From contig JAGCNM010000025.1 of NCBI GenBank assembly GCA_017645955.1, positions 1-44,065 on the forward strand: a DNA stretch of 44,065 nt. The letters are read 5' to 3'. The stretch's first letter is position 1; every line of letters starts with the position of its first letter. The notes under the pieces were generated by a model. That model did not search any database. It had not been told where the DNA came from and saw only the letters and a list, made by a program, of their open reading frames with translations. This DNA comes from Candidatus Saccharimonadota bacterium (lineage in GTDB: Bacteria; Patescibacteriota; Saccharimonadia; Saccharimonadales; Saccharimonadaceae). Positions 11,108 to 26,941 of this stretch are shown here, piece after piece. The position numbers were made by a program, and so were the translations under genes.

Positions 11108-12841
11108 ATGGCAAATTTTTTCAAAAAGAGTGGGCAAAAGATTTTTAACAAGTTTTCTCGTGCTTCGCTGAAGGCTGGGGAAGAAAGTAAGGAGCACATT
11201 AAGGAAAACTTAATTGATCGTTTTTCGCATATCGAAAATGTGAGGCTCTTGATTCTAGAGTGGGGGCTTTTAGTGCTTGCCTTAATGATGCTCGCAGCTA
11301 CGCAGTCGTTTTGGTTTGGTGATTCCTACGCCGGAAACGCATTTACGACAGGCGGAATTTACACGGAAGCGACAATTGGCGATGTAAATTCGATGAATCC
11401 TCTATTCGCGACAACAAACAGCGAAAAGGTCTTAAGCCGTCTGATGTTCGCGACCGTTGCGACAAATGATTATTCGGGGCATGCCGGGATTGGGCTCGCA
11501 AAAACTATCACTCCGAGCGAGGATGGGAAGGTTTGGAAGGTTAGACTGCGTGACGATTTAAAATGGTCTGACGGCGAAGCTATTACAAACGAAGATTTAT
11601 TATTTACGACTGAGCTGATCCAAAATCCCGTGATTAACTCGGTCTATGATAGCAATTTAAGGGGTGTTACAGTTTCCGAGAGCGAAGAAGGGGAAATAAT
11701 CTTTACTTTGCCTTCGGCATACGCCGATTTTATTACGGCATTAAACTTTCCGGTTTTACCTGAACACGTTTTGAAAGATGCAGATCCGAAAACTTTAGTT
11801 GAACACAGTTTTTCGAAATCGCCGGTCACATCAGGTGCTTTTTCGTTTAATGCTATGCAATCCGGGGCGTCGTCGGAAGAACGAGTTTATTATCTTGCTT
11901 CAAACCCATATTATTATAAAGGAAAGACTCTATTAAATAGCTTTGCTGTACATACTTATAAGACAAGGGAGAAGGTAATTAACGCGTTAAATTCCGGCTC
12001 TGTAACAGCTACGGCCGAGCTGACTGAGGTTGATAATGATAAGGTTAGCGCAACTTTTTTGAGGAAGAACTCGAGCCTTAATTCAGGCGCGTTTATCTTT
12101 TTCAACACAACGAATGGCGCAACTAAAAATGCTACTCTTCGGGCTGCGATTCGGGAGGGAATTAGCCTTGAGAAATTGAGGGGAGAAGCGGCGGAAACGG
12201 TGGCACTAGATTATCCTCTACTTGATTCGCAAATTAAACTAACTAGTTTCCCGGCTTTACCGGGCGAAAACTTTGAAGCAGCAAAGGAGAAGATTGCTGG
12301 GCTAAGTGGCGAAGAGCCGATTAGTTTAAATATTGTTACGGTTAATGTTGGGTTCTTACCGAAAGTAACAGAAGAATTAGGAAGAGAACTGACTGAACTC
12401 GGAATTAATGCACATACTACAGTTTATGAGGAAGGTCAGGAGTTTGTTTCGAATATTATTGCGAAACGCAATTATGATATTTTAGTATACGAGATTGAAC
12501 TTGGCGCAGACCCAGATTTATTACCTTATTACCATTCTTCTCAAGCCTCAACAACAGGCTTAAACCTTTCGAACTATCGTAACGCTCTTGTAGATGACTT
12601 ATTGCTCGGGGCGCGCGATACAACCGACGAAAACTTGAGAGTAAAGAAATATGAATCTTTCTTGGCGCATTGGGTGAGCGACGTTCCAGCGATTGGTTTA
12701 TATCGTCCGAACCTAACGTATTATTACAATAAAAATGTCCGCACGTTTAACGATGGCGTACGAATTGTGACGGCACTCGACCGATTCTGTGACCTTAATT
12801 CTTGGGCAGTCACAAAAACAACAAAGAATAAAACGCCATAA
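11108..12841 (+). CDS. Membrane-anchored peptide-binding protein (SBP family 5)
   Basis: 577 residues. After a basic N-terminus, one transmembrane helix (about 47-68) anchors a large outer domain. That domain has features of family 5 extracellular solute-binding proteins (OppA/DppA type): NSMNPLFATTN, a VWKVRLRDDLKWSDGEAIT block, an SPVTSGAF turn, and a C-terminal region with YYHSSQASTTGLNLSNY. There is no lipobox cysteine, so a helix anchor replaces the lipid. No ABC permease or ATPase genes are nearby. Likely role: capturing peptides from the host or surroundings. Its start is one base after the secG stop. No convincing terminator follows. Confidence 0.9.
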   Translation: MANFFKKSGQKIFNKFSRASLKAGEESKEHIKENLIDRFSHIENVRLLILEWGLLVLALMMLAATQSFWFGDSYAGNAFTTGGIYTEATIGDVNSMNPLFATTNSEKVLSRLMFATVATNDYSGHAGIGLAKTITPSEDGKVWKVRLRDDLKWSDGEAITNEDLLFTTELIQNPVINSVYDSNLRGVTVSESEEGEIIFTLPSAYADFITALNFPVLPEHVLKDADPKTLVEHSFSKSPVTSGAFSFNAMQSGASSEERVYYLASNPYYYKGKTLLNSFAVHTYKTREKVINALNSGSVTATAELTEVDNDKVSATFLRKNSSLNSGAFIFFNTTNGATKNATLRAAIREGISLEKLRGEAAETVALDYPLLDSQIKLTSFPALPGENFEAAKEKIAGLSGEEPISLNIVTVNVGFLPKVTEELGRELTELGINAHTTVYEEGQEFVSNIIAKRNYDILVYEIELGADPDLLPYYHSSQASTTGLNLSNYRNALVDDLLLGARDTTDENLRVKKYESFLAHWVSDVPAIGLYRPNLTYYYNKNVRTFNDGVRIVTALDRFCDLNSWAVTKTTKNKTP

Positions 12842-12911: not shown

Positions 12912-12985
12912 AATAGATGATGTCCTATTTATATAGGGTGTAGTTATTTAAAGTCTTGATTATATATTTAGGGGGAGTGGTTAGA

Positions 12986-13780
12986 TTGAAAGTAAGGGAC
13001 ATTGAAGTGGGCCGCCGGATTGGCGAATCCTCGAAATTTCGCATCTACCTCGGGAAAACACCCAGCGAACAATCCGTAATTTTGAAAGTGGCAAAAACCT
13101 TTGAAGATGGCGACGTTTTAGCCTTAGAGGCCGGCGAATTCAACATTTTGTATGTCTTTAGTGAACAAATTGCAAAGTTTGAACGAAAGGCGGGGCTAGA
13201 AAGTGCCCGCTATGATTTGCTTTTCGCGAACCTAATCGCCTCTTTTTTAGAGCCTACCCAAGACGACCGGCGCATCAACGTCTTTGCGATGCCGGAAATT
13301 GATGTCAGCGAATTAATTCCGCTGACTAAACTTTCTAGCACCGTCGAGATTGATGCGCGCACGAGTGTTTGGATTTTAGGGCGTCTTTTTAAGTTCTACA
13401 GCTTTTTTGAGCTGATAGCAGCTGACGGAGACAACCCTATTTCTAGGTACCCGTTCTTTTCTCCGGACGACTACATGATTGGTCCAGAAAAGCATCGTAT
13501 AATCTACTACAATTTTACCGGTGATCTTGCCGATGTGGTAGCTTATAACTATGTTCGGGCGGTTGCGAGTTTTGTGTTTAATTGGACCGTTTTTAACAAT
13601 GACCCGATTGAACAGGAATATCGTAATCTTTTGAAAGATTTTGTGGAAGTTGGCCGCGATTCGTTCGAACAGGCGCATAAGGAACTCTACGATTTAGTTA
13701 AAAAAATCTGGGGAATTTCTTATTATCCTTTCACTTATCGCGACTGTGGCAGTATGGTTTGGAACAAGAAAGGGGAGTAA
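12986..13780 (+). CDS. Kinase-fold-like protein, probably catalytically degenerate
   Basis: 264 residues, no confident family. The N-terminus resembles a protein-kinase lobe: a glycine-loop-like GRRIGESSKFRIY, then VILKVAK with Lys34 at the ATP-lysine position, and an acidic helix LALEAGEF. A hinge-like FAMPEIDVSEL follows. No HRD triad is visible, and the place expected for DFG reads YYNFTGD, so it looks like a pseudokinase. This is inference from pattern. TTG at 12986 is chosen because it lies 9 bases after AGGGGGA (12970-12976); an upstream in-frame TTG at 12956 has no SD. The stop is 2 bases before the vWA gene, so both are in one operon. Confidence 0.75.
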   Translation: MKVRDIEVGRRIGESSKFRIYLGKTPSEQSVILKVAKTFEDGDVLALEAGEFNILYVFSEQIAKFERKAGLESARYDLLFANLIASFLEPTQDDRRINVFAMPEIDVSELIPLTKLSSTVEIDARTSVWILGRLFKFYSFFELIAADGDNPISRYPFFSPDDYMIGPEKHRIIYYNFTGDLADVVAYNYVRAVASFVFNWTVFNNDPIEQEYRNLLKDFVEVGRDSFEQAHKELYDLVKKIWGISYYPFTYRDCGSMVWNKKGE

Positions 13781-13782
13781 AA

Positions 13783-14859
13783 ATGGGACGTTCGACTTTT
13801 TCCGTAGAAAGTTACCGAAAGGCTCGCGAAGACTACGGCGTGACGCACGACACTGGCGTTACCGAAGTCGCCGAAAAGCACGCCCAGGAAACTGGGCGCC
13901 TCAGCGAAATCGTTGACCCCGCCATTAATCCGATTAGGAGATCCCTAATTCGGCTTGACCCCCACCAGAAAAAGTGGATTGCAACTATCGGCTGTCCGAT
14001 GGACATCGAAGTTAGTTGCGATACCACTGGCTCGATGGGTAGCGAGGTTGACACGGAAATGAAAGTCCTGCCGGATCTCTATAAAGCGGTAGCTAAGGTA
14101 TTGCCGGGCTACGACCCGCAGCTTTGCCTCGGTATCTTTGGCGATGTTTGTGACGATTTCGTCATGTGTCGCCCACAATTTGAGATGGAAGCACCCAAAA
14201 TCGTAAACTATCTTAAGGAGATGGCGCCTCAGCGTGATGGTGGTGATACACCCGAAGATCCGCAATATGCAATGTTTGCGCGCGCTTATCTGACCGATGC
14301 TTACACTAACCGCATTGGTCTTAAAGGGTATCACTTCATCGTGACAGATGCACCCTGCCATCATCGCCTCAACCGTAGTGAAATCGAGCGTATTTTTGGC
14401 AAAGATATCTTTGATAATGAGCTGAAAAATATGACTGAGATTCCCACGATGGAAGAGATGATTAAGGACCTTAAAGATAAGGCCCATCAGTTTATTCTGG
14501 TGATTAGTGCCAATACCAGAACCGTCAGAGACTGGTGCGATCTCTGTGGTTCGAGTTCGGTAATTAAAATTGATTCTACTCGGCAACTGCCGGCGGTCAT
14601 TTCCGCCATCATCGGTCTGACCGAGGGAACAATGGATATTGCTGACCTCGAGCGACGTATTGACTATTTTGGCCTGGCTTCACAGCTTTACAGAATCGAC
14701 ATCGGCGCGCAGGCGAAGCTTCGGCACGCTCTGCCGCATCCGGTTCCGAAAGCTGGCGACATCTTTAGAAATAAGGGTGACCTCTGGCCGATTCAGCCGG
14801 GCGACGAAGACGCCGAAGAAAAGCCGCTCGAAACTCCTGACCATATCGAATACCTATAA
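13783..14859 (+). CDS. von Willebrand factor A (vWA) domain protein with MIDAS site
   Basis: 358 residues. The vWA fold is marked by a metal-ion-dependent adhesion site: DTTGS at 80-84 (D-x-T-x-S), Thr156 in GGDTPED, and Asp189 in IVTDAPCHH. Such proteins bind partners through a divalent metal and often act with kinases or ATPases in signalling or conflict systems (TerY type). No signal peptide or transmembrane helix, so cytosolic. An upstream ATG at 13759 lies inside the previous gene; the ATG at 13783 with AGGGGAG just before it is preferred. Codons are rich in C and G compared with the core genes. Second in the island operon. Confidence 0.9.
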   Translation: MGRSTFSVESYRKAREDYGVTHDTGVTEVAEKHAQETGRLSEIVDPAINPIRRSLIRLDPHQKKWIATIGCPMDIEVSCDTTGSMGSEVDTEMKVLPDLYKAVAKVLPGYDPQLCLGIFGDVCDDFVMCRPQFEMEAPKIVNYLKEMAPQRDGGDTPEDPQYAMFARAYLTDAYTNRIGLKGYHFIVTDAPCHHRLNRSEIERIFGKDIFDNELKNMTEIPTMEEMIKDLKDKAHQFILVISANTRTVRDWCDLCGSSSVIKIDSTRQLPAVISAIIGLTEGTMDIADLERRIDYFGLASQLYRIDIGAQAKLRHALPHPVPKAGDIFRNKGDLWPIQPGDEDAEEKPLETPDHIEYL

Positions 14860-14905
14860 TCAAGATAATTAACAATTTGGTTTACAAGATGATTCGAGGT
14901 GAAAT

Positions 14906-16222
14906 ATGTTCGAAAAAATTTACGTTGTTACCGACCTTGGTCCTGGTGACGGCGGAAAAGGCAGCATCGTACACGCACTTTCGTGTAAAACCGACGCAAA
15001 TATCATTATTAAGCGCGGCGGCGCACAAGGTTCTCATGGTGTGCATGCTTCACTAGGGGAGAGTTTCAACTTTTCCCAGTGGGGATGCGGAACGCTTGAG
15101 GGCGTGCCGACTTTTCTGTCCGAACAAATGGTGATTTCGCCTGTCGGACTCGAAAACGAGTCGGAAGCCCTCAAAAAACTGGGAATATTCGACCCATTTA
15201 AACTTCTTTCCTGCGACCAGTCCTGTATCGTCGCTACGCCTTATCATAGGATTGCTTCCCAGTTTGAGGAGCTACTCTTAAAAGATAAACCGCGTGGCAC
15301 CGTCGGAACGGGTATTGGACAAGCCTATCGTATGACAAGTAACTTTGGCGGAGAGATGACAATCCGAGCCCACGATTTAACAGACCGTCGAGTTATCCGC
15401 TCGAAGCTTCAAAGACAATACGATTATTACTTTGAGCAGTACGGGAAAATCACTCGAGATGCTTTTTTGCTTGAAGATTTCCATAACTACGCCGTAAATC
15501 TCATCCGATTCCTTCACGACGAAGATTTTTTTAACTACGTTATCGACTTGTTCGACGAAATAGGCAAAAAACTGCGTCTCACGAGTTTTGATGAGGTATT
15601 AAAAGGCGACGGAACGGCAATCGTCGAGTGTTCGCACGGAGTTTTGACCGACGCCGAAATGGGCTTAAAACCCCACGTCAGCGCCATCCGAACTCTGCCG
15701 ATCTTCGCAAACAAAATGCTAAGAAACGCTGGTTATGACGGCGAAATTATCAACTACGCCGTCCACCGCGCCTACGAAATCCGTCATGGCGCCGGCCCTA
15801 TGCCGACCTATGACCCCGAGTTCACGGCACGCATGCTTCCAGGTAGTCACAAGGACAAAAACCGTTGGCAAGGCGCCGTTCGCGCTGGTCCGCTTGACCT
15901 AAATCTCATGCGATACGCACTAGATGTAAGCAAGGAAATTCAGTTTGACGGACTGGCTCTGACCTGGTTTGACCAGATTTTAGCCAATGACCGTACCTGG
16001 CCGGTCTGTTTTCATTATAAAAACAGACGAAAAGGCGACGAGTCGATTACTGAATACCTAAAACACGCCGAGCCTTTAGTGTGTAATTTCGGCATCAGAA
16101 ACCCCATCCCCGTACGAGAATTATTCAACTTTGTGGATAAAGTGCTCGAAAGTTTCCTTAAAATCCCGCTAAAAATCCTTTCAGCCGGACCTACAGAAAA
16201 GAATAAAATCTATTCAGAATGA
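14906..16222 (+). CDS. Divergent adenylosuccinate synthetase (PurA) paralogue
   Basis: 438 residues, near PurA length. Order-conserved matches: GPGDGGKGS (12-20) for GDEGKGK, IKRGGAQGSHGV for the GG-(H/N)-NAGHT block, VGTGIGQAY (133-141) for TGRGIGPAY, HGAGPMPTY (294-302) for VGAGPFPTE, and GPLDLNLMRYA for GWLDxVxLRYA. The catalytic Asp (15) and His (44) positions are kept. The aspartate-binding ATTGR loop is not recognisable, and the GTP-specificity TKLD reads TWFD (353-356). So it probably ligates or phosphorylates a different nucleotide-like substrate. It is not a standard PurA, and PurA would be unexpected alone in a purine scavenger. Third in the island operon, SD GAGGTG. Confidence 0.85.
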   Translation: MFEKIYVVTDLGPGDGGKGSIVHALSCKTDANIIIKRGGAQGSHGVHASLGESFNFSQWGCGTLEGVPTFLSEQMVISPVGLENESEALKKLGIFDPFKLLSCDQSCIVATPYHRIASQFEELLLKDKPRGTVGTGIGQAYRMTSNFGGEMTIRAHDLTDRRVIRSKLQRQYDYYFEQYGKITRDAFLLEDFHNYAVNLIRFLHDEDFFNYVIDLFDEIGKKLRLTSFDEVLKGDGTAIVECSHGVLTDAEMGLKPHVSAIRTLPIFANKMLRNAGYDGEIINYAVHRAYEIRHGAGPMPTYDPEFTARMLPGSHKDKNRWQGAVRAGPLDLNLMRYALDVSKEIQFDGLALTWFDQILANDRTWPVCFHYKNRRKGDESITEYLKHAEPLVCNFGIRNPIPVRELFNFVDKVLESFLKIPLKILSAGPTEKNKIYSE

Positions 16223-16235
16223 GGAGGATAAATCC

Positions 16236-17417
16236 ATGAGTGAGAAGAAAACCATCACTACCATCGACAACGACGTAGCGACAAAAGTCGACGTCGACGA
16301 GGCGGTCCTGGCCAAGCTCAAAGAATTTGATACCGGCACGGACACGATTACGAAAATCGTAGACGAGCTCGGCGTCGAAAGCCTCGAAGATTTGGCTTCG
16401 CTTGAAGTCTCCGATCTTACCGGTGCTGGTATGAAGCTGGCCAAAGCCCGCAAGCTCGTGAATGAGCTGAAAGCAAAGGCCGCAGCTCCTGCTGTAGCCG
16501 CTGCGGAAACCCGCGCCATCCAAACCCAGTTTGAGGCGCTTCTGCCTCCTGTGCCGACGGATGATTCTTGGCTCAACGCCTTGAAGACTGGCGGCATCCT
16601 GAAGGTGGACGAGTCGTCCTACATCGCTGCTATTCGTGCAGCACTGGCCTTCCAGGCTGGACTTTATTCCATCCCGGATGCCCTGGCAAAAGCCATGGAA
16701 AAATACGCCGATGAGACCGAAGAACAAGTCGATCCGACCTTCTACGCTCTGCGTAAGTCTCTGACTCGCCGCACCTATGGCGACATCTTCGCTGCCATCG
16801 ACGGCCTGGACGGCACTTTCATTACTGAAGGCCGTCGTAAGGAATTTCTCGGTCGCATCCGCGACACTCTGTGGCCGGCCATTGCCGAAAGCTATCAGAC
16901 GCTGGACGGCTGGTACCAGACTTGGCGCGCCAGTTTTTCTGACCCTTCGATGCTGATTGCCGCCATCGGTGGCGGATTTGGCGGTGGTGCTCCGGGAATG
17001 AGTATGATTACTCCGCCCGACACCGCACCCCTGCACGACGCCGGCGATACGTTGGTCGATTCCATCAACCGCGTCTTCCGCGGGACTGGCGTTCAGGTCG
17101 CCGCTGCCATGGCGTACGACGCCAATGTCATCCGCAATACGCTGGAAGACCCGCGCCTACCTTCTATGGTCGGCGTGAAAAACCGCGAGATGATGCTGAA
17201 GAAGATCGGCGCCGCCGTTTCTAGCAACTACGTTCGCCTGGAACAGAACCTGGTCAAATACGTCCTCGGCTTCGCCAAACACGATACTGTGACTTCCGAC
17301 GTGGAAGTCAACTACTTCGTGGCGCTCTGGCAGCTCGGCACTCAAATCAACTGGAACGAGCTCGGCGTAAGTGGCGCTGGCGGCGTGACCGGACTGACCG
17401 GGAAACGTGTCCTGTAA
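16236..17417 (+). CDS. Helical protein with SAM-like N-terminal domain, unknown function
   Basis: 393 residues, not recognised as a whole. Residues about 35-80 (VDELGVESLEDLASLEVSDL and the helix after it) resemble a SAM or helix-hairpin-helix interaction domain, followed by an Ala/Pro linker. The rest is mostly helical, with a Gly-rich loop IGGGFGGGAPGM near 245-256. No catalytic motif is obvious. It may be the scaffold or target of the vWA and PurA-like proteins (inference). GC content is about 57% in one sampled 60-base line, against about 42% in a sampled core-gene line. SD GAGGAGG; 13 bases after the PurA-like gene; last gene before a strong terminator. Confidence 0.85.
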   Translation: MSEKKTITTIDNDVATKVDVDEAVLAKLKEFDTGTDTITKIVDELGVESLEDLASLEVSDLTGAGMKLAKARKLVNELKAKAAAPAVAAAETRAIQTQFEALLPPVPTDDSWLNALKTGGILKVDESSYIAAIRAALAFQAGLYSIPDALAKAMEKYADETEEQVDPTFYALRKSLTRRTYGDIFAAIDGLDGTFITEGRRKEFLGRIRDTLWPAIAESYQTLDGWYQTWRASFSDPSMLIAAIGGGFGGGAPGMSMITPPDTAPLHDAGDTLVDSINRVFRGTGVQVAAAMAYDANVIRNTLEDPRLPSMVGVKNREMMLKKIGAAVSSNYVRLEQNLVKYVLGFAKHDTVTSDVEVNYFVALWQLGTQINWNELGVSGAGGVTGLTGKRVL

Positions 17418-17434
17418 ACCCCGCACATTAAAAT

Positions 17435-17461
17435 AGGCCCCCTTATAAGGGGGGCCTTTTT
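17435..17461 (+). terminator. Bidirectional terminator between island genes
   Basis: A GC-rich stem (17435-17444 with 17447-17457, one extra G) is followed by TTTTT on the plus strand. Read on the minus strand it is followed by TATTTTA, so it may also stop the converging nucleotidyltransferase gene. Confidence 0.88.
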
Positions 17462-17467
17462 CATGGC

Positions 17468-18628
17468 TTAAAGCCACACGTATTTTACATAGAGCATCGT
17501 GGCGATTGTACGATATTCGTCGTCGTAAAACGGACAATCGCCGTCCATTTCCTTCGGGGCATCGTAATCCATCCTGCCGGTAAACCTCGCGAAGCCTTTG
17601 TGAAGCAGCCGGTACTGCAATAAATCGCTTTCTAGCTTTTCAATTGCCCGCCTTTTTACGAAAGTTGACGGATTATTGAAATACAAATCTATGATTTTTT
17701 GCCTCATCTGTTCAAGATTCGATTTACTTCCGCCCAGCCAGACGGTATTGAGGTAAATATGAGCGCCTTCTGCGCTACCAGGATAAAGATCTTCGCTCGC
17801 GCAGAGTTCACTTAAACGCCAGACGTCCAAATCGCTATCTTTCGTTCCATAGCCCTTCAGCTTAGAACCGCCAACCATAACAATTTCTGACGGCTCAAGC
17901 TTTGAAGCAATTTCTTTAAGCTCCGTTTTAAAAGCCGGGATATTATCCGAAAACGGTCCTTCAAGCTTCGCGGATGGCGTCAGAAGTTCCGCCGGCTCGC
18001 CGAGCGAATCTAGCCACTCTTTCCGTTTTTCTGAATTATACAGCGGTTCAGATGGTTTTCTTTTAGGTAAAAACATCGTCTCGCTAGACAATTCCTCTAA
18101 CTTCAGTTCACTCAGAATTCTTTTTTCCTTAATATAGCCCCAAGTGTCTTTGAAACTCTGGCGTAAAGTATAATCTAAACCGTTGTTCCAGAGTATGTCG
18201 AGAATCTCTTTTTGGCTGAGGTAGCCATACTTTAAGAGCCAAGGTGTCAAGTGCGCGCATTTTACTACGCGCTCTAATCCTTCCTTGGGTCTTGCGTCGA
18301 GCTCAAAACAGTCGCCAAAATGGAAATTCTCACGTACATCCTTCACGTTTAGTAATCTATACCACGCTTTCTTGTACGTTTCACGGAACCATCCTGGCGC
18401 GCCCCAAAGGACCCAGAATGGTAAATAGAGTAATAACCTCTCGGAATTCGTCGCTTCAAGCAGCGCTCCACAGTTTTTATAGAACGCATCGCGCGTATGG
18501 ATTGTAGAATGGCTCCAGGCGCCTCTTTTTCCTCCTCTTAAAAATCCGCAAATATTGTCTGCAATTAAGCGTCGCGCATTATCATCATAGAACCTTCGCT
18601 CAACCGCCGGCTTCATTAAAACAGCCAC
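17468..18628 (-). CDS. Nucleotidyltransferase-fold protein
   Basis: 386 residues from the GTG at 18628. Residues about 253-269 read GGSKLKGYGTKDSDLDV, the GS-x(n)-DxD pattern of polymerase-beta-type nucleotidyltransferases, which transfer an NMP to protein, RNA or a small molecule. Residues 1-240 are helical with several Trp and have no known match. GTG is chosen over an in-frame TTG at 18661 because AGGGGGA lies just before it; the same SD type starts the island operon. It converges on that operon and shares its terminator. Close placement suggests one system, but transcription is separate. Confidence 0.82.
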   Translation of the reverse strand: MAVLMKPAVERRFYDDNARRLIADNICGFLRGGKRGAWSHSTIHTRDAFYKNCGALLEATNSERLLLYLPFWVLWGAPGWFRETYKKAWYRLLNVKDVRENFHFGDCFELDARPKEGLERVVKCAHLTPWLLKYGYLSQKEILDILWNNGLDYTLRQSFKDTWGYIKEKRILSELKLEELSSETMFLPKRKPSEPLYNSEKRKEWLDSLGEPAELLTPSAKLEGPFSDNIPAFKTELKEIASKLEPSEIVMVGGSKLKGYGTKDSDLDVWRLSELCASEDLYPGSAEGAHIYLNTVWLGGSKSNLEQMRQKIIDLYFNNPSTFVKRRAIEKLESDLLQYRLLHKGFARFTGRMDYDAPKEMDGDCPFYDDEYRTIATMLYVKYVWL

Positions 18629-18669
18629 AATTATCCCCCTCTCTATGCTTTTAATGTGCAATTAAATAT

Positions 18670-18721: not shown

Positions 18722-18745
18722 ATAAAAAATGCGCTTGAGCGCGAC
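18722..18745 (-). terminator. Ancestral tRNA-Leu terminator, now separated from the gene
   Basis: Read on the minus strand: GCGC-TCAA-GCGC stem-loop (18731-18742) followed by A and TTTTTT. It lies 15 bases beyond the distal att copy, in the position expected for the terminator of tRNA-Leu before the element was inserted. Confidence 0.65.
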
Positions 18746-18759
18746 ATTCTAAAATGAAA

Positions 18760-18781
18760 TGGTGCGCCTGACTAGACTCGA
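18760..18781 (-). repeat. Distal att repeat (copy of tRNA-Leu 3' end)
   Basis: 22 bases identical to 25762-25783, beginning TGGTGCGCCTGACTAGACTC on the plus strand. It covers CCA, the 3' acceptor strand and part of the T arm. Identity stops right after 18781. Confidence 0.9.
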
Positions 18782-18955
18782 TTCGAAGAACGAGTCGGCG
18801 CGGTGTTATACAATCTTAATGGTGCCCGAAATCCAAATAATTACGAACCACTCTATGAAGTGGTCGAGTATGTAATTTTGAACCCAACTTGGTGGCCAAG
18901 CTATATTTTAGTTAATAGTGATATTAACCCTGATTTACAAGATTTCGTATACTGA
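18776..18955 (+). pseudogene. Orphan C-terminal coding fragment next to the att site
   Basis: An open frame follows the TAG inside the att repeat and ends at TGA 18953-18955. The translation looks protein-like (LYNLNGARNPNNYEPLYEVV, then NPTWWPSYILVNSDINPDL) but has no ATG and no SD; the only possible start is GTG 18803. It is probably the 3' remnant of a gene cut by integration or deletion. Family unknown. The rest of 18679-19008 holds the ancestral terminator, the att repeat and the leader of the next gene. Confidence 0.45.
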
Positions 18956-19008
18956 AACTACATCAAGGAAACTAGTTACGAACTATTAATACAATACTAG
19001 AAAGAGAG

Positions 19009-19398
19009 ATGAATATGTTAAATAATACCACCAATACTCAGGTGAAGCAGCAAACATTAAAAAATGGCAACCCAATCAATAGAGAGCGCCAGTTTGGGCA
19101 ACCTAACGGCAACAAACAGGGTAAGGGGTTCTGGAAAAAAGAAAATACCCCAAGATTTAAGCTAGAACAAATGCTAATGATGGACGAAAATGAAATTGTA
19201 GGAATAATAAACGACAAAACTAGATCATTATTTGAAAGGAAAGTTACAAAATCCTTATTTAATGAAGAGAGCTTCAAGGGGTTAGAATTAATGATAAATC
19301 AGGTATATGGACCACCAAAGCAAAAAATCGACTTAGACTACGATAATGATGAACATTACAATATTTCTTTTGTCGTAAAGGATTTCAGAAAAGAATAG
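19009..19398 (+). CDS. Small phage-like protein (possibly small-terminase-like)
   Basis: 129 residues. The N-terminus is Asn/Gln-rich and basic, with a NGNKQGKGFWKKENTPRFK segment like the start of many phage small-terminase or DUF5681-type proteins. A helical middle follows, then LMINQVYGPPKQKIDLDYD, which resembles the GKPKQ-type end of that group. The match is weak and the function is tentative. ATGAATATG gives two possible starts; GAGAG serves as a weak SD. First intact gene inside the tRNA-Leu element. Confidence 0.65.
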   Translation: MNMLNNTTNTQVKQQTLKNGNPINRERQFGQPNGNKQGKGFWKKENTPRFKLEQMLMMDENEIVGIINDKTRSLFERKVTKSLFNEESFKGLELMINQVYGPPKQKIDLDYDNDEHYNISFVVKDFRKE

Positions 19399-19478
19399 AA
19401 CAATAATTATAGAATTCAATTCAGTAGTATTACTTTGCGTCTTTAAACTGCCAATACAAAAGTGTACTATATTGACAA

Positions 19479-20735
19479 ATGAGAAGTTTTATGAAAAAAT
19501 TATGCCAGATGGTAAAAAAACAAAAAAGAATAAAACGTCATAAAAACAACTCTGCAAAGCGGAAGGTTCATAAAAAACAGAGTAAGAATAACCTCTGGAA
19601 TAATTGTTTTAAAACGAAAAAGAGCTTATTCATCTGTACGATTGTATTTCTTGTTTTAGTAGTAATTCTCACAATAATAATCGTAAATAGCGTTAATAAC
19701 TCTAAATTAATTGAGCCAGATATAGGATATATCGATTATAATCAAAAAGTTACCTCAGAGAATGATGAAGAATTCGATTCAAATTATAAAACGGGCTCAA
19801 ACAAGGATTTTTCTGTTCGTTTCCCAGAATTACAATGCGAAGAAGAATGCGACAATATTGGTACAGTCAGACTAGGTAATGATATTTTACAAAAAGACAA
19901 AGATTATATAGTGAAAAAGGGGAGCGTTATAATAGTATTACTAGCTAAAGCTATGAATCGCTTTGACACAGGAAACTATAGTCTGACTTTTGAATATACA
20001 ATAAACAATATAAAAACAATAATAGGTGTCAAGATCTCTATAGTGTCAACCAGTGCGAATGACACTTCATCAAATGAAGAGGATAAAAATGAAGACAATG
20101 CTACGGCCACAACAGATACGACTACGGCACAAGAAACGAAGCCAAATGAGACGAATGGATCTTCTAGCGGCAACAATAATAGCAGCGAAGCGCCAACACC
20201 AGAACCGCAACAGGTTATTCCCGAGAAATATAGCGATGAATGGTTCAATGCTTGTCCCAAAGATGAGTGGTGGGAAGGTAACCAAATACAATATCGTGTT
20301 TGCGCTAGGGTACCAGACCCTCATCGGCTAGGATGGACGAGAAGCGAATCAAATGATAACGTAGTAAAAGGAACGTTTGTAAATAGATGGGGTTATGCTA
20401 AAGAACATAACATGACTCAAATACTCTTGCCAGAATTCTTCTTATTCGATGTTGGCGATTCCTATGGACAAATCCACGTTCCTGATGGATTATTCCCGCA
20501 ATCAATAGAGGGCCAATACCTCGTACAATATTGGGGTTCATATCAAAACGGACGATGGTCTGTGACGGGGGAAATAAAATATCAAAGTTGTTTAGGCGAA
20601 AAATGCTACGAGCCTATCATCCTTAACGCCGAACAAACAGCATTCGTAGACAATCTCACGCAAATTGGAGAAAACTATCTGAACGAGCTTGAAGCTTCTT
20701 TCAATTATTATAGTGCGTTTCCTTATAACCATTAA
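19479..20735 (+). CDS. Membrane-anchored extracellular protein, element-encoded
   Basis: 418 residues, not recognised. A strongly basic N-terminus (Lys/Arg-rich to residue 48) precedes one transmembrane helix (about 49-71). Residues 72-190 look beta-rich. A Thr/Ser/Asn/Glu-rich linker at about 190-245 leads to a C-terminal domain with several Cys and Trp (ACPKDEWWEGNQIQYRVCAR). Topology is N-in, C-out. A second ATG at 19491 is possible. TATATT lies 5-6 bases before the first ATG, so this may be another leaderless gene. Likely a surface function carried by the element; it could alter host contact or exclude other elements (speculation). Confidence 0.78.
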   Translation: MRSFMKKLCQMVKKQKRIKRHKNNSAKRKVHKKQSKNNLWNNCFKTKKSLFICTIVFLVLVVILTIIIVNSVNNSKLIEPDIGYIDYNQKVTSENDEEFDSNYKTGSNKDFSVRFPELQCEEECDNIGTVRLGNDILQKDKDYIVKKGSVIIVLLAKAMNRFDTGNYSLTFEYTINNIKTIIGVKISIVSTSANDTSSNEEDKNEDNATATTDTTTAQETKPNETNGSSSGNNNSSEAPTPEPQQVIPEKYSDEWFNACPKDEWWEGNQIQYRVCARVPDPHRLGWTRSESNDNVVKGTFVNRWGYAKEHNMTQILLPEFFLFDVGDSYGQIHVPDGLFPQSIEGQYLVQYWGSYQNGRWSVTGEIKYQSCLGEKCYEPIILNAEQTAFVDNLTQIGENYLNELEASFNYYSAFPYNH

Positions 20736-20773
20736 TCGATAGTGATCTAACGCCAAATCTGCTTAAAACTAGT

Positions 20774-23713
20774 TCACTTTGCAATCTTTTTTCTTGTGCA
20801 ATATGGACATCTAACACTGCTATGGTGGAGATCGTGCGGAGCTGATTGCCATTTATGCCCGCTTGGGCAATTCCACCAAACTTTTTTACCCGAATTGGCG
20901 GTAATATCCGTAGGTTTTAGGCTGCCATTTTTTTCATAGTCCCACTGTTTTAATAGGCTTTTTTTGATTGTAGCTAAATCATTAACTCCCGCAATAGCGT
21001 TTCTACCGGAACAAAACGGGCAACCAACGCCTTTATTTCTACTAACGATTGTAGCTTCCCATTCGTGACCTTTCGAACATCTCCACCAAACTTTTTTGCC
21101 ATTGTTTGACGTAAAGTCTCGTGGTTTTAGATCCCCATTTTTTTCATAATTCCATTCTTTTGCCAATGTGGGATTAGTCGAGGATAGATCGTTGAGGCCA
21201 GGAACGGTTATTCTGTTGGAGCAAATAGGACAACCTCTGCCCTGATTTCTGTTGCCGATCGTAGCTTCCCATTCGTGACCTTTCGAACATCTCCACCAAA
21301 CTTTTTTGCTGCTGTTTGATGTAAAGTCTTGTGGTTTTAGATTCCCATTTTTTTCATAATTCCATTCTTTTGCTAGTTGAGGGTTTATAGATGCTAGGTC
21401 ATTAAAATTGACGAGTACTTTGTGCCCAGAACAAAACGGGCAACCAACGCCTTTATTTCTACTAACAATCGTAGCTTCCCATTCGTGACCTTTCGAACAT
21501 CTCCACCAAACTTTTTTGCCGCTGTTTGATGTAAAGTCTTGTGGTTTTAGATTCCCATTTTTTTCATAATTCCATTCTTTTGCTAGTTGAGGGTTTATAG
21601 TTATTAGATCGTTATATCCTATTAATATTTTATTACCACTACAGTAATTGCATTTACATCCACTGAGTTTACTTGGTATAGTAGTCTCATAACTATGCCC
21701 GTTCTCGCATTTTAGCCATACTTTTTTTCTAGAACCTTTACTAATATCTGTGGGCTTAATTATATTCTTTTTATAGTCCCATATAGCTAGTAATTCTGGG
21801 TTTGTGGTGGCGATATCATTAAAACCAGCTAATACCCTTTGGCCAGAACAATATGGACATTTAAGCTTTTTTGACGTTCTGCCGTTTGGCGTAGAAGCAT
21901 AGCTATGACCTTTAGGACAAATCCACCAAATTTTTTTAATATGTCCTTTTCCGACTTCTGTTGGTTTAGCCTTATTCTTTTTATAGTCCCATTCTTTTGC
22001 TAGTTCTGGATGAGTGGTAGCTAGATCATTAAATCCGGCGAGCACTTTATGGCCAGAGCAGTAAGGGCACCCACTTCTTCTATGATTAAGTAATAGAACT
22101 GAATAGCTGTGGCCTTTATCACAAATGAGCCAAACTTTCTTGTTTGCACCGCTACTTACTTCCGTAGGTTTAATTGTGTTCTTTTTATAATCCCACTTTT
22201 CTAAGAGTTCAGGCTCCGTAGTGGCTAGGTCATTGAAACCAATGAGCACTCTTTTTCCGGTGCAGTATGGACAACTGGTGCCACCGTTTATTTTATTTGA
22301 GGGAGCTGCTTGATAACTATGACCTTTTGGGCATTTCCAGTATACGTTAAAACTAACGCCAGCAGATGTATTATTCGGTGTTATGCCGTATTCATTATTT
22401 TTTTCATAATCCCATTCAGCTAAGCACTCAGGATTTGTTTTTGCTATACAATTTTCTTTATCAAAATCAATAACTAGTTTTTTAATTTCGTTATAGTCTC
22501 TAGTTATATTAATATTTAGATTAACATCCAAAATGCCTTCTAGATATATTAACCCAGGTATAATATGAGAACAGTCTGGCTTATTTTTTTGTGGTAAAGT
22601 AAAGACTAGCGAAGAAGATGTTTTTAATTCTTGAAGACAATTCTCTCTAATACGAACAAGCTTTACGCCGTTCGCTTCGCATAAAGAGTCTTTGTCTAAA
22701 TCTTTGTTTAATAAACGGTGCCAATAACCATCATATTCAATGCCTATTCTCTTACTTGGCAGGAAAATGTCTAGTTCTTTACCATTTAACCATGCTGGCC
22801 TATAGTTTTCCTCGGCATCTGGAAAAACTTTTTTTAAATAGAAGAAAATGGCTTTTTCTGGAAACGATATCCTTAACCTTTTTTTACATATTGGACAAGA
22901 TGATACGTGTCCATCAGCCGTTCGTGTATATACTGTAGCTTCCCATTTATGCCCCTTTTCACACTGCCACCAAAACTTTTGCTTACCACCTAAGGATAAA
23001 CTAGTTGGATCTACAGTGTTTTTTTCATAATCCCATTCCTTCGCTAATTCTGGATATTTTGTCAAAAGGTTGTTTTCTGATGTGGCTCTACGTCCCGAAC
23101 AATATGGGCATCCGCAACCCTCTTTACTATTATTGATGATTGTGGCTTGGTAACTATGTCCTTTTGGACACTTCCACCAAATGTTTCCAGAGTACCCTCT
23201 ACTGATTTCTGTAGGTTTTACTACGTTTTTTTCATAATCCCAGTATTTAATAAGTTCTGGGTTGGTTGTGGCTACATCGTTTAAACCAGCTAAAACTCTT
23301 CTATTTGAGCAATATGGACAACCAACCCCATGAGTTCTAGGAAAAATTACTGAATCATAGCTATGACCTTTTGGGCATTTCCACCATACTTTATCTTTAA
23401 AACCGACGCCTATTTTATTAGGGAATATTCCAAGTTTATTATTCTTATCATAATCCCATTCTTTTAATAACTGTGGGCACTTTGTGGCGAAATCGTTAAA
23501 GCCTTCCAGGAGTCTATGTCCTGAACAATATGGACAACCTAGATGGCGTCTGGTTCTATCACAGATTTTAAGTTGGTAGTGATGCCCTTTATCACATATC
23601 CACCAAGCTTCCTTTCCAGATCCAAAAGTAATATCCTCGAAAAAGATTCCATTCTCACCATTTTTTTTATAATCCCATTCTTTTGCTAGGTTGGGGTAGT
23701 CTTTTTTTAACAT
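20774..23713 (-). CDS. Zinc-ribbon array protein with embedded PD-(D/E)XK-like nuclease
   Basis: 979 residues. I count 12 repeats of about 65-75 residues of the DUF4379 (probable zinc-ribbon) type: P-x-L-x-x-x-W(D/N)Y-x-KN, then W-x-C-x-x-GH, then C-P-x-C, then N-D-L. Four precede and eight follow an inserted domain (about 285-375) with FPEKAIFFYL, GKELDIFLPSKRIGIEYDG and KLVRIREN, the Vsr/DUF559-like layout whose acidic residues bind the catalytic metal. Probably a DNA endonuclease using the ribbon array to read a long target. Repeats 9-11 are nearly identical in DNA as well, showing recent duplication. Starts 11 bases after a -10 box; divergent from an HNH gene. Confidence 0.9.
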   Translation of the reverse strand: MLKKDYPNLAKEWDYKKNGENGIFFEDITFGSGKEAWWICDKGHHYQLKICDRTRRHLGCPYCSGHRLLEGFNDFATKCPQLLKEWDYDKNNKLGIFPNKIGVGFKDKVWWKCPKGHSYDSVIFPRTHGVGCPYCSNRRVLAGLNDVATTNPELIKYWDYEKNVVKPTEISRGYSGNIWWKCPKGHSYQATIINNSKEGCGCPYCSGRRATSENNLLTKYPELAKEWDYEKNTVDPTSLSLGGKQKFWWQCEKGHKWEATVYTRTADGHVSSCPICKKRLRISFPEKAIFFYLKKVFPDAEENYRPAWLNGKELDIFLPSKRIGIEYDGYWHRLLNKDLDKDSLCEANGVKLVRIRENCLQELKTSSSLVFTLPQKNKPDCSHIIPGLIYLEGILDVNLNINITRDYNEIKKLVIDFDKENCIAKTNPECLAEWDYEKNNEYGITPNNTSAGVSFNVYWKCPKGHSYQAAPSNKINGGTSCPYCTGKRVLIGFNDLATTEPELLEKWDYKKNTIKPTEVSSGANKKVWLICDKGHSYSVLLLNHRRSGCPYCSGHKVLAGFNDLATTHPELAKEWDYKKNKAKPTEVGKGHIKKIWWICPKGHSYASTPNGRTSKKLKCPYCSGQRVLAGFNDIATTNPELLAIWDYKKNIIKPTDISKGSRKKVWLKCENGHSYETTIPSKLSGCKCNYCSGNKILIGYNDLITINPQLAKEWNYEKNGNLKPQDFTSNSGKKVWWRCSKGHEWEATIVSRNKGVGCPFCSGHKVLVNFNDLASINPQLAKEWNYEKNGNLKPQDFTSNSSKKVWWRCSKGHEWEATIGNRNQGRGCPICSNRITVPGLNDLSSTNPTLAKEWNYEKNGDLKPRDFTSNNGKKVWWRCSKGHEWEATIVSRNKGVGCPFCSGRNAIAGVNDLATIKKSLLKQWDYEKNGSLKPTDITANSGKKVWWNCPSGHKWQSAPHDLHHSSVRCPYCTRKKIAK

Positions 23714-23724
23714 ATCTTGCGCTA

Positions 23725-23779
23725 ATTATACCTGACGTAATTATAGCATATTTGCATTATCGAAATAAGATGATATAAT
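23725..23779. promoter_or_regulatory. Divergent promoters for the two nuclease genes
   Basis: On the minus strand TATAAT (23730-23725) drives the zinc-ribbon nuclease with a leader of about 5 bases. On the plus strand TGATATAAT (23771-23779) drives the HNH gene with a leader of about 20 bases. Confidence 0.6.
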
Positions 23780-23805
23780 ATTATTTAGTAAAAGTAATAG
23801 AGTAA

Positions 23806-24573
23806 ATGCGAGAAGAAACTACTAGAATTTGTAGGGTGTGCAGTAAAGAAAAACCTCTAGACGAGTTTCGTATCAGGGGGGATTCTGGCAAGCGTAGAAC
23901 GGAGTGTAAAAGTTGTCTAAGTGAGTATTTAAAAGAATATAGGAAAGCAAACAGACAGCATATTTCTGAACTCAATAAAAATTGGAGAGAAGAACACAAA
24001 AAAGAATTGTTAGAGTATCAGCTTAATTGGCAGCGAAATAATAGAGAAAAATGCCATTCTTATAATAAGAAATCTAGCCAGAATATGGCAGAGGAAAGAA
24101 GAGCAAAAGCAAATTTACGTTATAAAAGGTATAGAGATGCTAGAAAGAATAATCCAGAGTTCAGGGAGTATATTAGAGTAAAGAATCGTGAATCGAGTAA
24201 GCGTCGTCGTAAAAAAATAACAGCTTATGAAGAAAATCGTAAGAAAGTTGACCCCATTTTTAAATTAAAAAAACAAATTAGAAATGAGATTAGGGAATCA
24301 TTTAATCGTAGAGGTTTTAGAAAATCTAAACGTACTGAAGAAATAGTGGGTTGTACCTTGCAAGAGCTATACCATTATCTATGTAAGACATATTTAACTA
24401 GATATGGGGAAATATATGACGGTAATAAGGTCGTACATATAGATCATATAATCCCGCTCGCTTCGGCAAAAAGCAAGAAAGACGTTGTAAGACTATGCCA
24501 TTACACAAATCTTCAGTTATTAAAACCTGAAGATAATTTGGAGAAAAATGATAGCTTAGATTGGTGTTTATAG
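23806..24573 (+). CDS. HNH endonuclease with N-terminal zinc ribbon
   Basis: 255 residues. The N-terminus has a four-Cys zinc site (CRVCSKEKPLDEF, then CKSC). The middle is a long, very basic helical stretch rich in Lys, Arg and Asn, suited to DNA contact. The C-terminus is an HNH nuclease: VVHIDHIIPLASAKSKKDV, LCHYTNLQLLKPEDN and a final EKND. No SD is visible. This architecture is common in phage and homing-type endonucleases. It is divergent from the 979-residue nuclease, and both lie in the element, so they could work as a pair in transfer or defence (inference). Confidence 0.88.
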   Translation: MREETTRICRVCSKEKPLDEFRIRGDSGKRRTECKSCLSEYLKEYRKANRQHISELNKNWREEHKKELLEYQLNWQRNNREKCHSYNKKSSQNMAEERRAKANLRYKRYRDARKNNPEFREYIRVKNRESSKRRRKKITAYEENRKKVDPIFKLKKQIRNEIRESFNRRGFRKSKRTEEIVGCTLQELYHYLCKTYLTRYGEIYDGNKVVHIDHIIPLASAKSKKDVVRLCHYTNLQLLKPEDNLEKNDSLDWCL

Positions 24574-24597
24574 CGAAACAAATTCAAGATTTATTGT

Positions 24598-25512
24598 TTA
24601 ATAGCAATTAGTATATGTATAATTACCGACTGAATTAGTAGTACAGTATAAGTAATTACTACCACCATTATTAATTGTTGAATTCTTAGCCGATTCAATA
24701 TAAGAATCTGTTTCGCTCTTTTTTATCCTAAGTTCACTAATATTGGATTCGTATTGTCCGCTCCCATATTTTTCATAACAATTTATTTCTTCTTGATATC
24801 CATTACTTAAACGTGTTAGTAAGGCAATAGTTGTCGTCATATCATTTTCTGCTCTCTGGAGCTCTTCGTCAGAAATAGTACTATTGTTCTGCGCATTTCT
24901 AACACAAGTCGACAAATCGGATTCCTGCTTATAAGTCTCGGCTTCTTTTTTATAAGATTCTAATTCATCAACTTTTTCTTGATAGTCCTTTACTTGATAC
25001 CTATTGTAGCAAGATAACGCCATATCATATTCTTCAATCCTTAGTTCAACTTGAGGACGATTACCAATTGTTATATCAAGTGTCGTGATAGGAGGTTTAA
25101 AAATTGAACGTTTAATTGAGTCGATCTCCCCTAATTGAAATCCACTATTAGAATATATCTTTTTGTATCCATCGTATAGGCAACTATTAAGTTTATTATC
25201 TAGCTCCGCCATATGTTTTGCTTCAATTATTTTAGGGACAATAATAATAGCAGCAATAATTAAGCCTATTACAGCCAAAACTACAGCGCCAATAATTATG
25301 TATGCTTTTGTCTTGAAAGGTTTTTTGTTTTCAGTTTTTATCTTGCCATTAACTAAATAGTAATTCTTTTCTCCCTTTTCTTCTTCAATAAGTATAATAT
25401 CGCCAACTTTACATTTGAAATCAATTTTGTCCGCTGATATAGTGATGACCTTGTCATCTTTAGTTATTGTTTTAACAGTATCGCCGTCTGTCTTAATCAC
25501 TTCAACGCGCAT
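24598..25512 (-). CDS. Membrane protein with cytoplasmic beta domain and outer helical region
   Basis: 304 residues from ATG 25512, chosen because AAGGAG lies 6 bases upstream; an earlier in-frame ATG at 25542 has no SD. Residues 1-60 look beta-rich and soluble (VEVIKTDGDTVKTI). A transmembrane helix spans about 68-93. The outer part has Cys spaced along charged helices (EKVDELESYKKEAETYKQ), suggesting a coiled coil, and ends Cys- and Tyr-rich. No family recognised. It is the last gene before the tRNA end of the element and converges on the HNH gene. Confidence 0.78.
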   Translation of the reverse strand: MRVEVIKTDGDTVKTITKDDKVITISADKIDFKCKVGDIILIEEEKGEKNYYLVNGKIKTENKKPFKTKAYIIIGAVVLAVIGLIIAAIIIVPKIIEAKHMAELDNKLNSCLYDGYKKIYSNSGFQLGEIDSIKRSIFKPPITTLDITIGNRPQVELRIEEYDMALSCYNRYQVKDYQEKVDELESYKKEAETYKQESDLSTCVRNAQNNSTISDEELQRAENDMTTTIALLTRLSNGYQEEINCYEKYGSGQYESNISELRIKKSETDSYIESAKNSTINNGGSNYLYCTTNSVGNYTYTNCY

Positions 25513-25682
25513 CATATTCTCCTTAATACCATTATAAATCATTTATGGCTTTTTTTATAAATAATACACTTATGCTTGAACCTCATGTGTCATATGAGAT
25601 AATACGATTGGCGGTGCGCAGGTTTAGAAAATGCAGAGTCATAAAAGAGACCTTGCCACATATAAACAAATACTCTATAAAG

Positions 25683-25716
25683 ACAAAAATGAGGTTTCTT
25701 TCAGATGGAAGAAACC
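25683..25716 (-). terminator. Terminator downstream of tRNA-Leu
   Basis: Read on the minus strand, an 8-bp perfect stem (25716-25709 with 25700-25693) is followed by TCATTTTTGTCTTT. It would end the tRNA-Leu transcript and appears to be brought by the element, replacing the one at 18722-18745. The interval 25513-25761 otherwise holds only short shadow frames. Confidence 0.7.
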
Positions 25717-25761
25717 CCTCGAATACATTCTTGATAGCACTAAAACCAACAAAACTAGCTT

Positions 25762-25783
25762 TGGTGCGCCTGACTAGACTCGA
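25762..25783 (-). repeat. Proximal att repeat within tRNA-Leu
   Basis: 22 bases identical to 18760-18781; forms the CCA, acceptor 3' strand and part of the T arm of the intact tRNA gene. Confidence 0.9.
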
Positions 25784-25852
25784 ACTAGCACAGCCGTGAA
25801 TCTGGCCACTACCACCTCAAGGTAGCGTGTCTACCAATTCCACCACAGGCGC
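25762..25852 (-). tRNA. tRNA-Leu (anticodon GAG)
   Basis: 91 bases including an encoded CCA. The acceptor stem GCGCCTG pairs with CAGGCGC. The anticodon arm is CTACC-TTGAGGT-GGTAG, giving anticodon GAG, which reads CUC/CUU leucine codons. The long variable arm is typical of tRNA-Leu, and the T loop is TTCGAGT. Its 3' end is the integration site of the adjacent element; the duplicated 22 bases keep the tRNA intact. Confidence 0.95.
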
Positions 25853-25954: not shown

Positions 25955-26941
25955 ATGAAGAATAGGATTTCCAAACTATTATGTATTGTGGCTCTACTAG
26001 TAGCAGTCTTTGGATTAGGTATTAATATAGCGAATACTTACGCGGAGGGAGAAGAGGAAAAAGCTGAAACGACTGGGGGAACCAGTATCAGTTTAACGCC
26101 GGTGAGTAAGATTCTCCAAATCGCTTCAGATAAAGTATATGATGAATCATTTGAGGTTACTAATGACGGAGATGCGGCGATTAAAGTAGAAGTGTATGCA
26201 GCGCCATATTCATATGTTTATTCCGACGAGGAAGATTTATATAAATTAGGCTTTACAAATGAAAATAATTATACCCAGATTACGCGTTGGATTAGTTTTA
26301 AAGATAGTAATGGAAATTATGTAGAAAGACCGACTTTTTCGATTGAGCCACATAAATCCTTAAAAATCGATTTTAAGATTTCTACTCCTAGCAATATCCC
26401 GAACGGTGGACAATACGCAGTCATCTTTGCTCATACCCTAAGCTCCACGGTTTCTGGAAGCGGAATTCGAACTGAAGCTAGCCCAGGCATGGTTGTTTAT
26501 GGACGTTCGTCTGAAGGGGAATCCATTGTTAGCTCTGAAATTTCCGATTTAAAGATTAATCAAGTTGATGGAAATATTGTCGCGAGTGCGAAAGTAAAAA
26601 ACACGGGCAATGTCGACTTTAACGCTCGCGGGGTTCTAAAAGTTGAGCCTATAATTGGCTTTAGTTCTTACGAGACTCCGGAGAACGGAGGACGACTTTC
26701 GGTTATTCCGGACGCGGAGTTGGTTTTAAGTAATGCTTGGGAAGAAACGCCTGGATTCGGTTTATTTAAAGCGAGTTTCGAGGTAAAAGTTGGAGAAAAA
26801 ACTGAGAAAATTGAGAAGATAATCATCCGAATGCCATTATTTGTGATGGTAATAATCATAATCCTATTGACAATTTTAATCATATGGATTATAATAACTG
26901 TCAGGAAGCGTAAAGAACGTCGTTCTAGATTGGCTGTCTAG
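25955..26941 (+). CDS. DUF916-like surface protein with C-terminal membrane anchor
   Basis: 328 residues. A signal peptide (about 1-30, ending NTYAEG) leads to an Ig-like beta domain resembling DUF916/WxL-interacting proteins: SISLTPVSKILQIASD, the FEVTNDGDAAIKVEVY block, and SIEPHKSLKIDFKISTP-GGQYAVIFA. A second beta domain follows, with VKNTGNVDFNARGVLKV. One transmembrane helix (about 291-313) and a basic tail end the protein. In Gram-positive bacteria such proteins sit at the cell surface and bind WxL partners or peptidoglycan. Followed after 73 bases by another anchored surface protein, probably in the same transcript. Confidence 0.85.
   Translation: MKNRISKLLCIVALLVAVFGLGINIANTYAEGEEEKAETTGGTSISLTPVSKILQIASDKVYDESFEVTNDGDAAIKVEVYAAPYSYVYSDEEDLYKLGFTNENNYTQITRWISFKDSNGNYVERPTFSIEPHKSLKIDFKISTPSNIPNGGQYAVIFAHTLSSTVSGSGIRTEASPGMVVYGRSSEGESIVSSEISDLKINQVDGNIVASAKVKNTGNVDFNARGVLKVEPIIGFSSYETPENGGRLSVIPDAELVLSNAWEETPGFGLFKASFEVKVGEKTEKIEKIIIRMPLFVMVIIIILLTILIIWIIITVRKRKERRSRLAV

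Follow-up and report, generated by a model that had tools for sequence, protein, structure and literature searches.

Integrases that interrupt their own genes have been described in archaea: the 'suicidal' integrases of SSV1, pTN3, and pT26-2 have their attachment site in the integrase gene, which integration splits, and related elements may supply such an integrase in trans (PMC8371274). A review published in 2021 confines recombinases that disrupt their own gene to the archaea (PMC8371274). Among bacteria, the gene for IntP of Myxococcus phage Mx8, as cited in PMC4383910, crosses attP, and its C-terminus is altered by integration. As to the choice of target, tRNA genes are known as sites of tyrosine integrases only, and serine integrases are not known to specify them (Islander, PMC4383910). 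Here, we describe an integrated element of Saccharibacteria that is related to a family of serine integrases (large serine recombinases, LSRs), a family that appears both to target tRNA genes and to disrupt its own gene. The hosts are episymbiotic bacteria with genomes near 0.9 Mb, and the tRNAs involved are those for Leu, Lys, Ile, Pro, Gln, Met, and others.

The window, by which we mean the whole 44,065-nucleotide stretch analyzed, is contig C43 of a 0.91-Mb genome of the Saccharibacteria type (G000). All genomes compared are drafts, and G000 outside the window was sampled as tRNA neighborhoods. The initial annotation had proposed an element integrated in a tRNA-Leu gene, bounded by a 22-bp direct repeat and without a visible integrase. 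ARAGORN and insert-free homologs in five relatives place tRNA-Leu(GAG), the integration target, at 25762–25852 on the reverse strand. The repeat, TGGTGCGCCTGACTAGACTCGA, is exact at 18760–18781 and 25762–25783, and its right copy is indeed the 3′ end of this tRNA. We looked for the empty site in relatives and found it in G022, G007, G003, G010, and G004, in which genes homologous to 11108–12841 (a solute-binding-protein gene) and 25955–26941 (a surface-protein gene) flank tRNA-Leu directly. Since the intervening DNA is absent in these five relatives, the DNA gained at tRNA-Leu(GAG) comprises the segment at 18.8–25.8 kb, which bears out the claim of an integrated element, and also a gene cluster at 12.9–18.7 kb. 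The GC content between the 22-bp copies is 31–41%, against mostly 39–53% in the flanks.

The second segment is a cluster of five genes (12956–18661), likewise missing from the relatives' tRNA-Leu locus, that encodes an adenylosuccinate-synthetase-like protein (14906–16222), a 358-aa protein without a family, an HHH-domain protein, and other unknown proteins. The 358-aa protein has a patchy distribution in the genus, with five other genomes carrying it at 54–79% identity. The tRNA itself is opposed to its neighbors in the window, G022, and G007, and codirectional with them in G003, G010, G004, and G005 (L039–L044).

Intact elements of the LSR family occur in relatives. Beside the same tRNA-Leu locus of G009, a same-genus relative (Candidatus Saccharibacteria bacterium RGIG5750, from sheep ileum), lies a 562-aa LSR in which Resolvase and zinc-ribbon domains were recognized, along with a Recombinase match below threshold. 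When the genus was searched with this protein, most full-length bodies matched residues 12 to about 515 only, and separate short matches, one of them at 18818–18952 in the window, spanned about 515–562 only. In G442, G432, and G449, a full body stands against tRNA-Leu(GAG) and reads antisense into it, and the tail is found 9–22 kb off, across the cargo. The LSR gene at these loci is thus split into two parts. The arrangement is general: in 25 of the 30 LSR bodies examined, the open reading frame enters the 3′ end of a tRNA antisense and stops within it, the tRNAs reached being Leu (GAG, TAG, and CAA), Ile, Gln, Pro, Lys, and Met. Four of the remaining five have earlier stops or run on beside the tRNA, and one (L214) is without a tRNA in reach. 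Many LSR bodies from other families of the order likewise stop in a tRNA read antisense. If the stop codon is supplied by the tRNA, it follows that in a circular form the gene runs on beyond the attachment site. Unsplit junctions of body and tail do exist, in G009 (the open 562-aa frame), G208, and G314; the latter two belong to tandem arrays at tRNA-Leu, the pattern that would arise if a second element targeted the end of the first. A search of IMG/VR with the LSR returned no relative, and a search of phages and plasmids returned only distant serine integrases, with less than 60% identity.

Two pieces of such a gene flank the segment in the window. The tail, at 18818–18955 on the forward strand, was found in the genus search with the G009 LSR, to which it aligns over residues 518–562 with 64% identity (E 1.9e-12); its 45 aa are intact to the stop, the frame is open, and the changes fall mostly at third codon positions. 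About 45 bp more of conserved DNA lies beside it at the left end of the element; after integration, no start codon is evident for the tail itself. The body is represented by its last ~31 codons, DKNEVSFRWKKPLEYILDSTKTNKTSFGAPD, at 25682–25777 on the forward strand, identified by tblastn and a pattern search (tblastn E about 4e-11 against the body G432a), and its stop, TAG, lies inside the tRNA antisense. Thus, the remark that no integrase was visible holds for a complete gene, but not for the two remnants of one that flank the element. The window element has an LSR-derived end abutting the tRNA 3′ end in antisense and, next to the core at its other end, an LSR tail; a complete catalytic LSR gene is not on board, only the ~31 body codons and the 45-codon tail remaining. 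We therefore file it as a derivative, not an autonomous member, of the tRNA-targeting LSR elements of Saccharibacteria.

These junctions also place the ends of the element, which on alignment is 18820–25761, about 6.94 kb. Its left end is the core TGGTGCCC (18820–18827), located by aligning ten left ends with two unsplit junctions of body and tail; the right core, TGGTGCGC (25762–25769), is the tRNA 3′ end in antisense, as located by comparing body-end junctions. The core reads TGGTGC(C/G)C, and the left 22-bp copy falls outside the element. The left and right cores are one base apart, a difference that would be accounted for by a tail derived from an element formerly at tRNA-Leu(TAG), the tRNA at which the derivative of G325 is found. 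The initial annotation had expected a circle joining 25761 to 18782; from these ends we predict a junction of 25761 to 18820 instead, which should read AACTAGCTT-TGGTGCCCGAAATCC.

It is very probable, judging from these comparisons, that 18820–25761 is an integrase-less derivative of an LSR element family that inserts at the CCA ends of tRNA genes. The attachment site of the circular form would lie within the LSR gene, in its 3′ coding end. Recombination of this site with the tRNA end through the common core TGGTG would leave the tRNA whole and split the LSR gene, such that the body, with all catalytic domains, would end in the tRNA antisense and the 45-codon tail would come to stand at the far end. 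Because the body keeps all catalytic domains, the split may shorten the enzyme without inactivating it. The body end, read antisense, would provide a transcription terminator in place of the one displaced from the tRNA. The window element would then have lost its body save the last ~31 codons, which hold the attachment half and the terminator, and kept its tail intact; with both arms kept, it could be moved, if at all, only by an LSR acting in trans. The 22-bp repeat and the hairpin on the left would belong to a separate, older duplication of the tRNA tail.

This last point concerns the 22-bp copies, which had been taken for the ends and attachment sites of the element. An exact repeat ending at CCA is the usual signature of a tRNA island, and a satellite bounded by the 22-bp repeats, with insertion at the T-loop by a tyrosine integrase, would account for it. 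However, G401 and G167 carry both copies at the same tRNA without cargo, a finding that the initial annotation had itself named as one that would speak against its reading, and the cargo junctions in nine related elements are TGGTG plus the LSR ends, most of them without a 22-bp copy. We consider such a satellite extremely improbable. At tRNA-Leu(GAG), G401 has one cargo-free unit and G167 has two identical ones in tandem. The window minus the element at its true ends has the layout of these units, and since the element-free remainder matches them, the 22-bp repeat is older than the element. The left copy (18760–18781, reverse strand) is accordingly a tRNA-Leu 3′-end copy in an older duplication unit outside the LSR element. 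A hairpin of the same unit, GACTCG-TTCTTCGAAT-CGAGTC (18775–18796, reverse strand), was recognized by sequence, fold, and covariation; on the tRNA strand the hairpin comes first and the 22-bp copy follows.

Units of this kind stand 30–60 bp downstream of many tRNAs of the genus. In their general layout, the 5′ arm of a hairpin is complementary to the T-loop or T-stem of the local tRNA, and a copy of the 3′ end of that tRNA follows. A search of 88 genomes of the genus detected the motif in 20; among 304 other genomes it occurred in 1, away from any tRNA. About 35 units were recorded at a dozen tRNA types. At 7 of the 44 tRNAs of G000, a stretch of 16 nt or more from the 3′ end of the tRNA recurs in the 400 nt that follow, as against 0 of 44 in each of the antisense, shuffled, and swapped controls; the repeat is thus not a product of chance. 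The genome lacks a third full copy of the 22-bp sequence. Covariation of the stem over 28 units was 0.305, compared with 0.124 after shuffling, a value that 0 of 500 shuffles reached, with relatedness among the sequences weakening this control. The unit loci are L099, L101, L116, L121, L122, L089, L090, and L117 in G000 and L048–L057 and L159–L182 in relatives. Two hairpin units stand in tandem at tRNA-Glu(TTC) of G000. The units at tRNA-Val and tRNA-Glu have a common structured tip of ~130 nt; an Rfam search of these ~130-nt structured units returned only tRNA and chance matches below the gathering score.

Could the hairpin units themselves be the mobile principle, as attC-like folded-strand sites anchored by tRNA, with the window element as a large cassette? 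Their number at a dozen tRNA types, the identical tandem units, the covariation of the arms with each tRNA, and the variation in their presence or absence between relatives would all fit. Yet the cargo ends are LSR ends and not hairpin ends, the units have no consistently linked recombinase, and the LSR-less element of G438 sits beyond the tRNA-tail copy of a unit, which indicates that the two act separately. We regard this explanation as very improbable. Integron attC sites resemble the hairpin units, which are the only part of the locus compared with them, in the bulged hairpin, variable tip, and tandem arrays; they differ in that the units have no linked IntI that we could see, copy the local tRNA in their arms, and are mostly cargo-free. 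Three other roles for the hairpin were considered and rejected: as the LSR site, since the cores do not coincide; as a site used by tandem double-LSR elements, which stand close to a unit in G388 and G012 but not at the other loci compared; and as a tyrosine-integrase attP, given no linked enzyme. Tandem pairs of serine recombinases occur in larger elements (L248, 10646–13649; L307, 4552–7162), two of them no more than 0.6 kb away from a hairpin unit.

A new terminator for the tRNA had been proposed at 25683–25716, inside the element, with the native one displaced to 18722–18745. The latter (reverse strand) is plausible as the original terminator region by sequence and fold. At the former, the window does have a terminator-like hairpin (25691–25718) with a T-run to 25683; what the proposal had not seen is that the same DNA is also coding, being the split 3′ end of the LSR gene read antisense. 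The predicted intrinsic terminator (25683–25718, reverse strand) thus lies on the strand opposite the LSR remnant. At this position, 38 of the 42 tRNA-adjacent LSR bodies, some of which are near-identical copies, have a hairpin and T-run at dG ≤ −6, compared with 71 of 210 control windows taken from the same genes; at dG ≤ −9, the counts are 34 of 42 and 26 of 210. The stems vary in sequence between LSR subfamilies. We infer that the last codons of the LSR have probably also been selected as the replacement terminator of the tRNA. If so, the LSR end offers a testable case in which one DNA stretch is coding sequence, recombination site, and terminator.

The window element is not the only one of its kind. 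A pattern search for the body end revealed five lineages without an LSR body but with its end: the window, G325 (at tRNA-Leu(TAG)), G438/G208, G022, and G455. They retain the last 31–55 codons, from about 494–519 to 549. In the window, G325, and G438/G208, homology begins at one common A-run, which is the terminator T-tract, and the DNA beyond it differs. The tail is also retained in G325 and G438/G208; none was found for the G022 derivative, and G455 runs off its contig. Derivatives without the retained end would escape a pattern search that needs it, but this requirement does not by itself explain the clustering of the breakpoints in the last 55 of ~550 codons. Whether the derivatives are satellites that need the arms and the terminator only, or remnants whose useful parts have survived, is close to an even choice.

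For the window element, the corresponding alternative is that it is dead: an LSR island of the ordinary type, with an integrase that decayed in situ and kept ends that do nothing but terminate the tRNA. This departs from the derivative described above only on whether movement in trans is still possible. A protein family search found no PF07508 LSR in G000, so the window element would be immobile without an incoming helper; in addition, the tail is down to 64% identity with that of G009, partly decayed bodies occur in G021 and G314, and value as a tRNA terminator would alone account for the kept right end. It does not account for the tail, which the tRNA does not require and which is still open to its stop with changes biased to third positions, nor for the several independent LSR-less elements that have both arms, at two leucine tRNAs. 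We give the dead remnant a substantial chance, a little short of even. If the element is mobile, dependence on a helper, which the initial annotation had suggested, is the best mobile reading. The wider proposal is that Saccharibacteria have widespread tRNA-targeting serine integrases with the site in their own gene, a C-terminus trimmed by integration, and a replacement terminator for the tRNA antisense to the same codons, and that compact satellites without an integrase, such as the window element, retain just this end and the tail and are moved in trans; taken as a whole, we hold it to be an even proposition.

How, then, does the LSR family compare with the systems described before? The archaeal suicidal integrases are alike in that the gene spans the attachment site and is split on integration. 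They are tyrosine integrases with the catalytic domain on the C-terminal piece, whereas the LSR is a bacterial serine enzyme of which only a 45-aa C-terminal tail is cut off; belonging to the PF00239/PF07508 serine family, it is similar in its working only and is not one of them. Mx8 IntP shares the feature of a bacterial integrase gene extending across attP. IntP is a tyrosine integrase of a phage, and we know of no terminator role or integrase-less derivatives for it. LSRs of phages and ICEs, such as that of phiFC1, have the same Resolvase, Recombinase, and zinc-ribbon domains and a distant sequence similarity, but the attP core of phiFC1 follows the stop codon of int, whereas the attachment site of the Saccharibacteria LSR is inside the gene. 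Islander-type tRNA islands share insertion at the tRNA 3′ end, tandem arrays, and cargo; unlike them, the LSR family has a core of ~8 bp at the CCA end, an unbroken tRNA, and a serine enzyme. The window element does not belong among the islands of tyrosine integrases, as its 22-bp copy predates it and the segment has no tyrosine integrase. The LSR elements of Saccharibacteria, a family that offers serine integrases with many tRNA targets, would be overlooked by island finders that discard candidates lacking a tyrosine integrase. Searches of open-access literature found no description of this LSR family or of tRNA-targeting serine integrases; as subscription papers lay outside this search, 'unreported' is provisional.

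The cargo of the window element comprises five genes. From left to right, they encode a 129-aa protein for which family searches gave no family (19009–19398, forward strand); a 418-aa probable surface protein with one membrane segment by reading and no confident family (19479–20735, forward); a 979-aa protein in which 12 DUF4379 zinc-finger repeats surround an endonuclease-like domain (20774–23713, reverse; PF14311, E 3.5e-210), which also matches phrog_559 HNH endonuclease (E 3e-81) and phrog_681; a 255-aa HNH/endonuclease VII-like nuclease (23806–24573, forward; phrog_1035, E 1.9e-12); and a 314-aa protein, membrane-anchored by reading (24598–25542, reverse). Homologs of the last occur at L253, close to an LSR, and at L249, close to a hairpin unit of tRNA-Glu. 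One DUF4379 homolog adjoins an intact LSR at tRNA-Gln in G281 (L212), and another lies 3′ of tRNA-Leu(GAG) in G019, at a contig edge. For the cargo, PADLOC gave only a weak DruE match inside the DUF4379 repeats, which is not credible. The element of G432 carries genes that, by sequence reading only, resemble a type III restriction system.

Elsewhere in G000, two contig ends fall exactly on the CCA of tRNA-Glu(CTC) (L110, C50:15920) and tRNA-Gly(CCC) (L123, C39:6108), which is what population variation at tRNA 3′ ends would give. A tyrosine recombinase gene is found amid paralogs of the surface-protein gene at window position 25955, both in G000 (C42:36514–37859) and in G007 (C10:80019–87129), possibly marking a shuffling locus.
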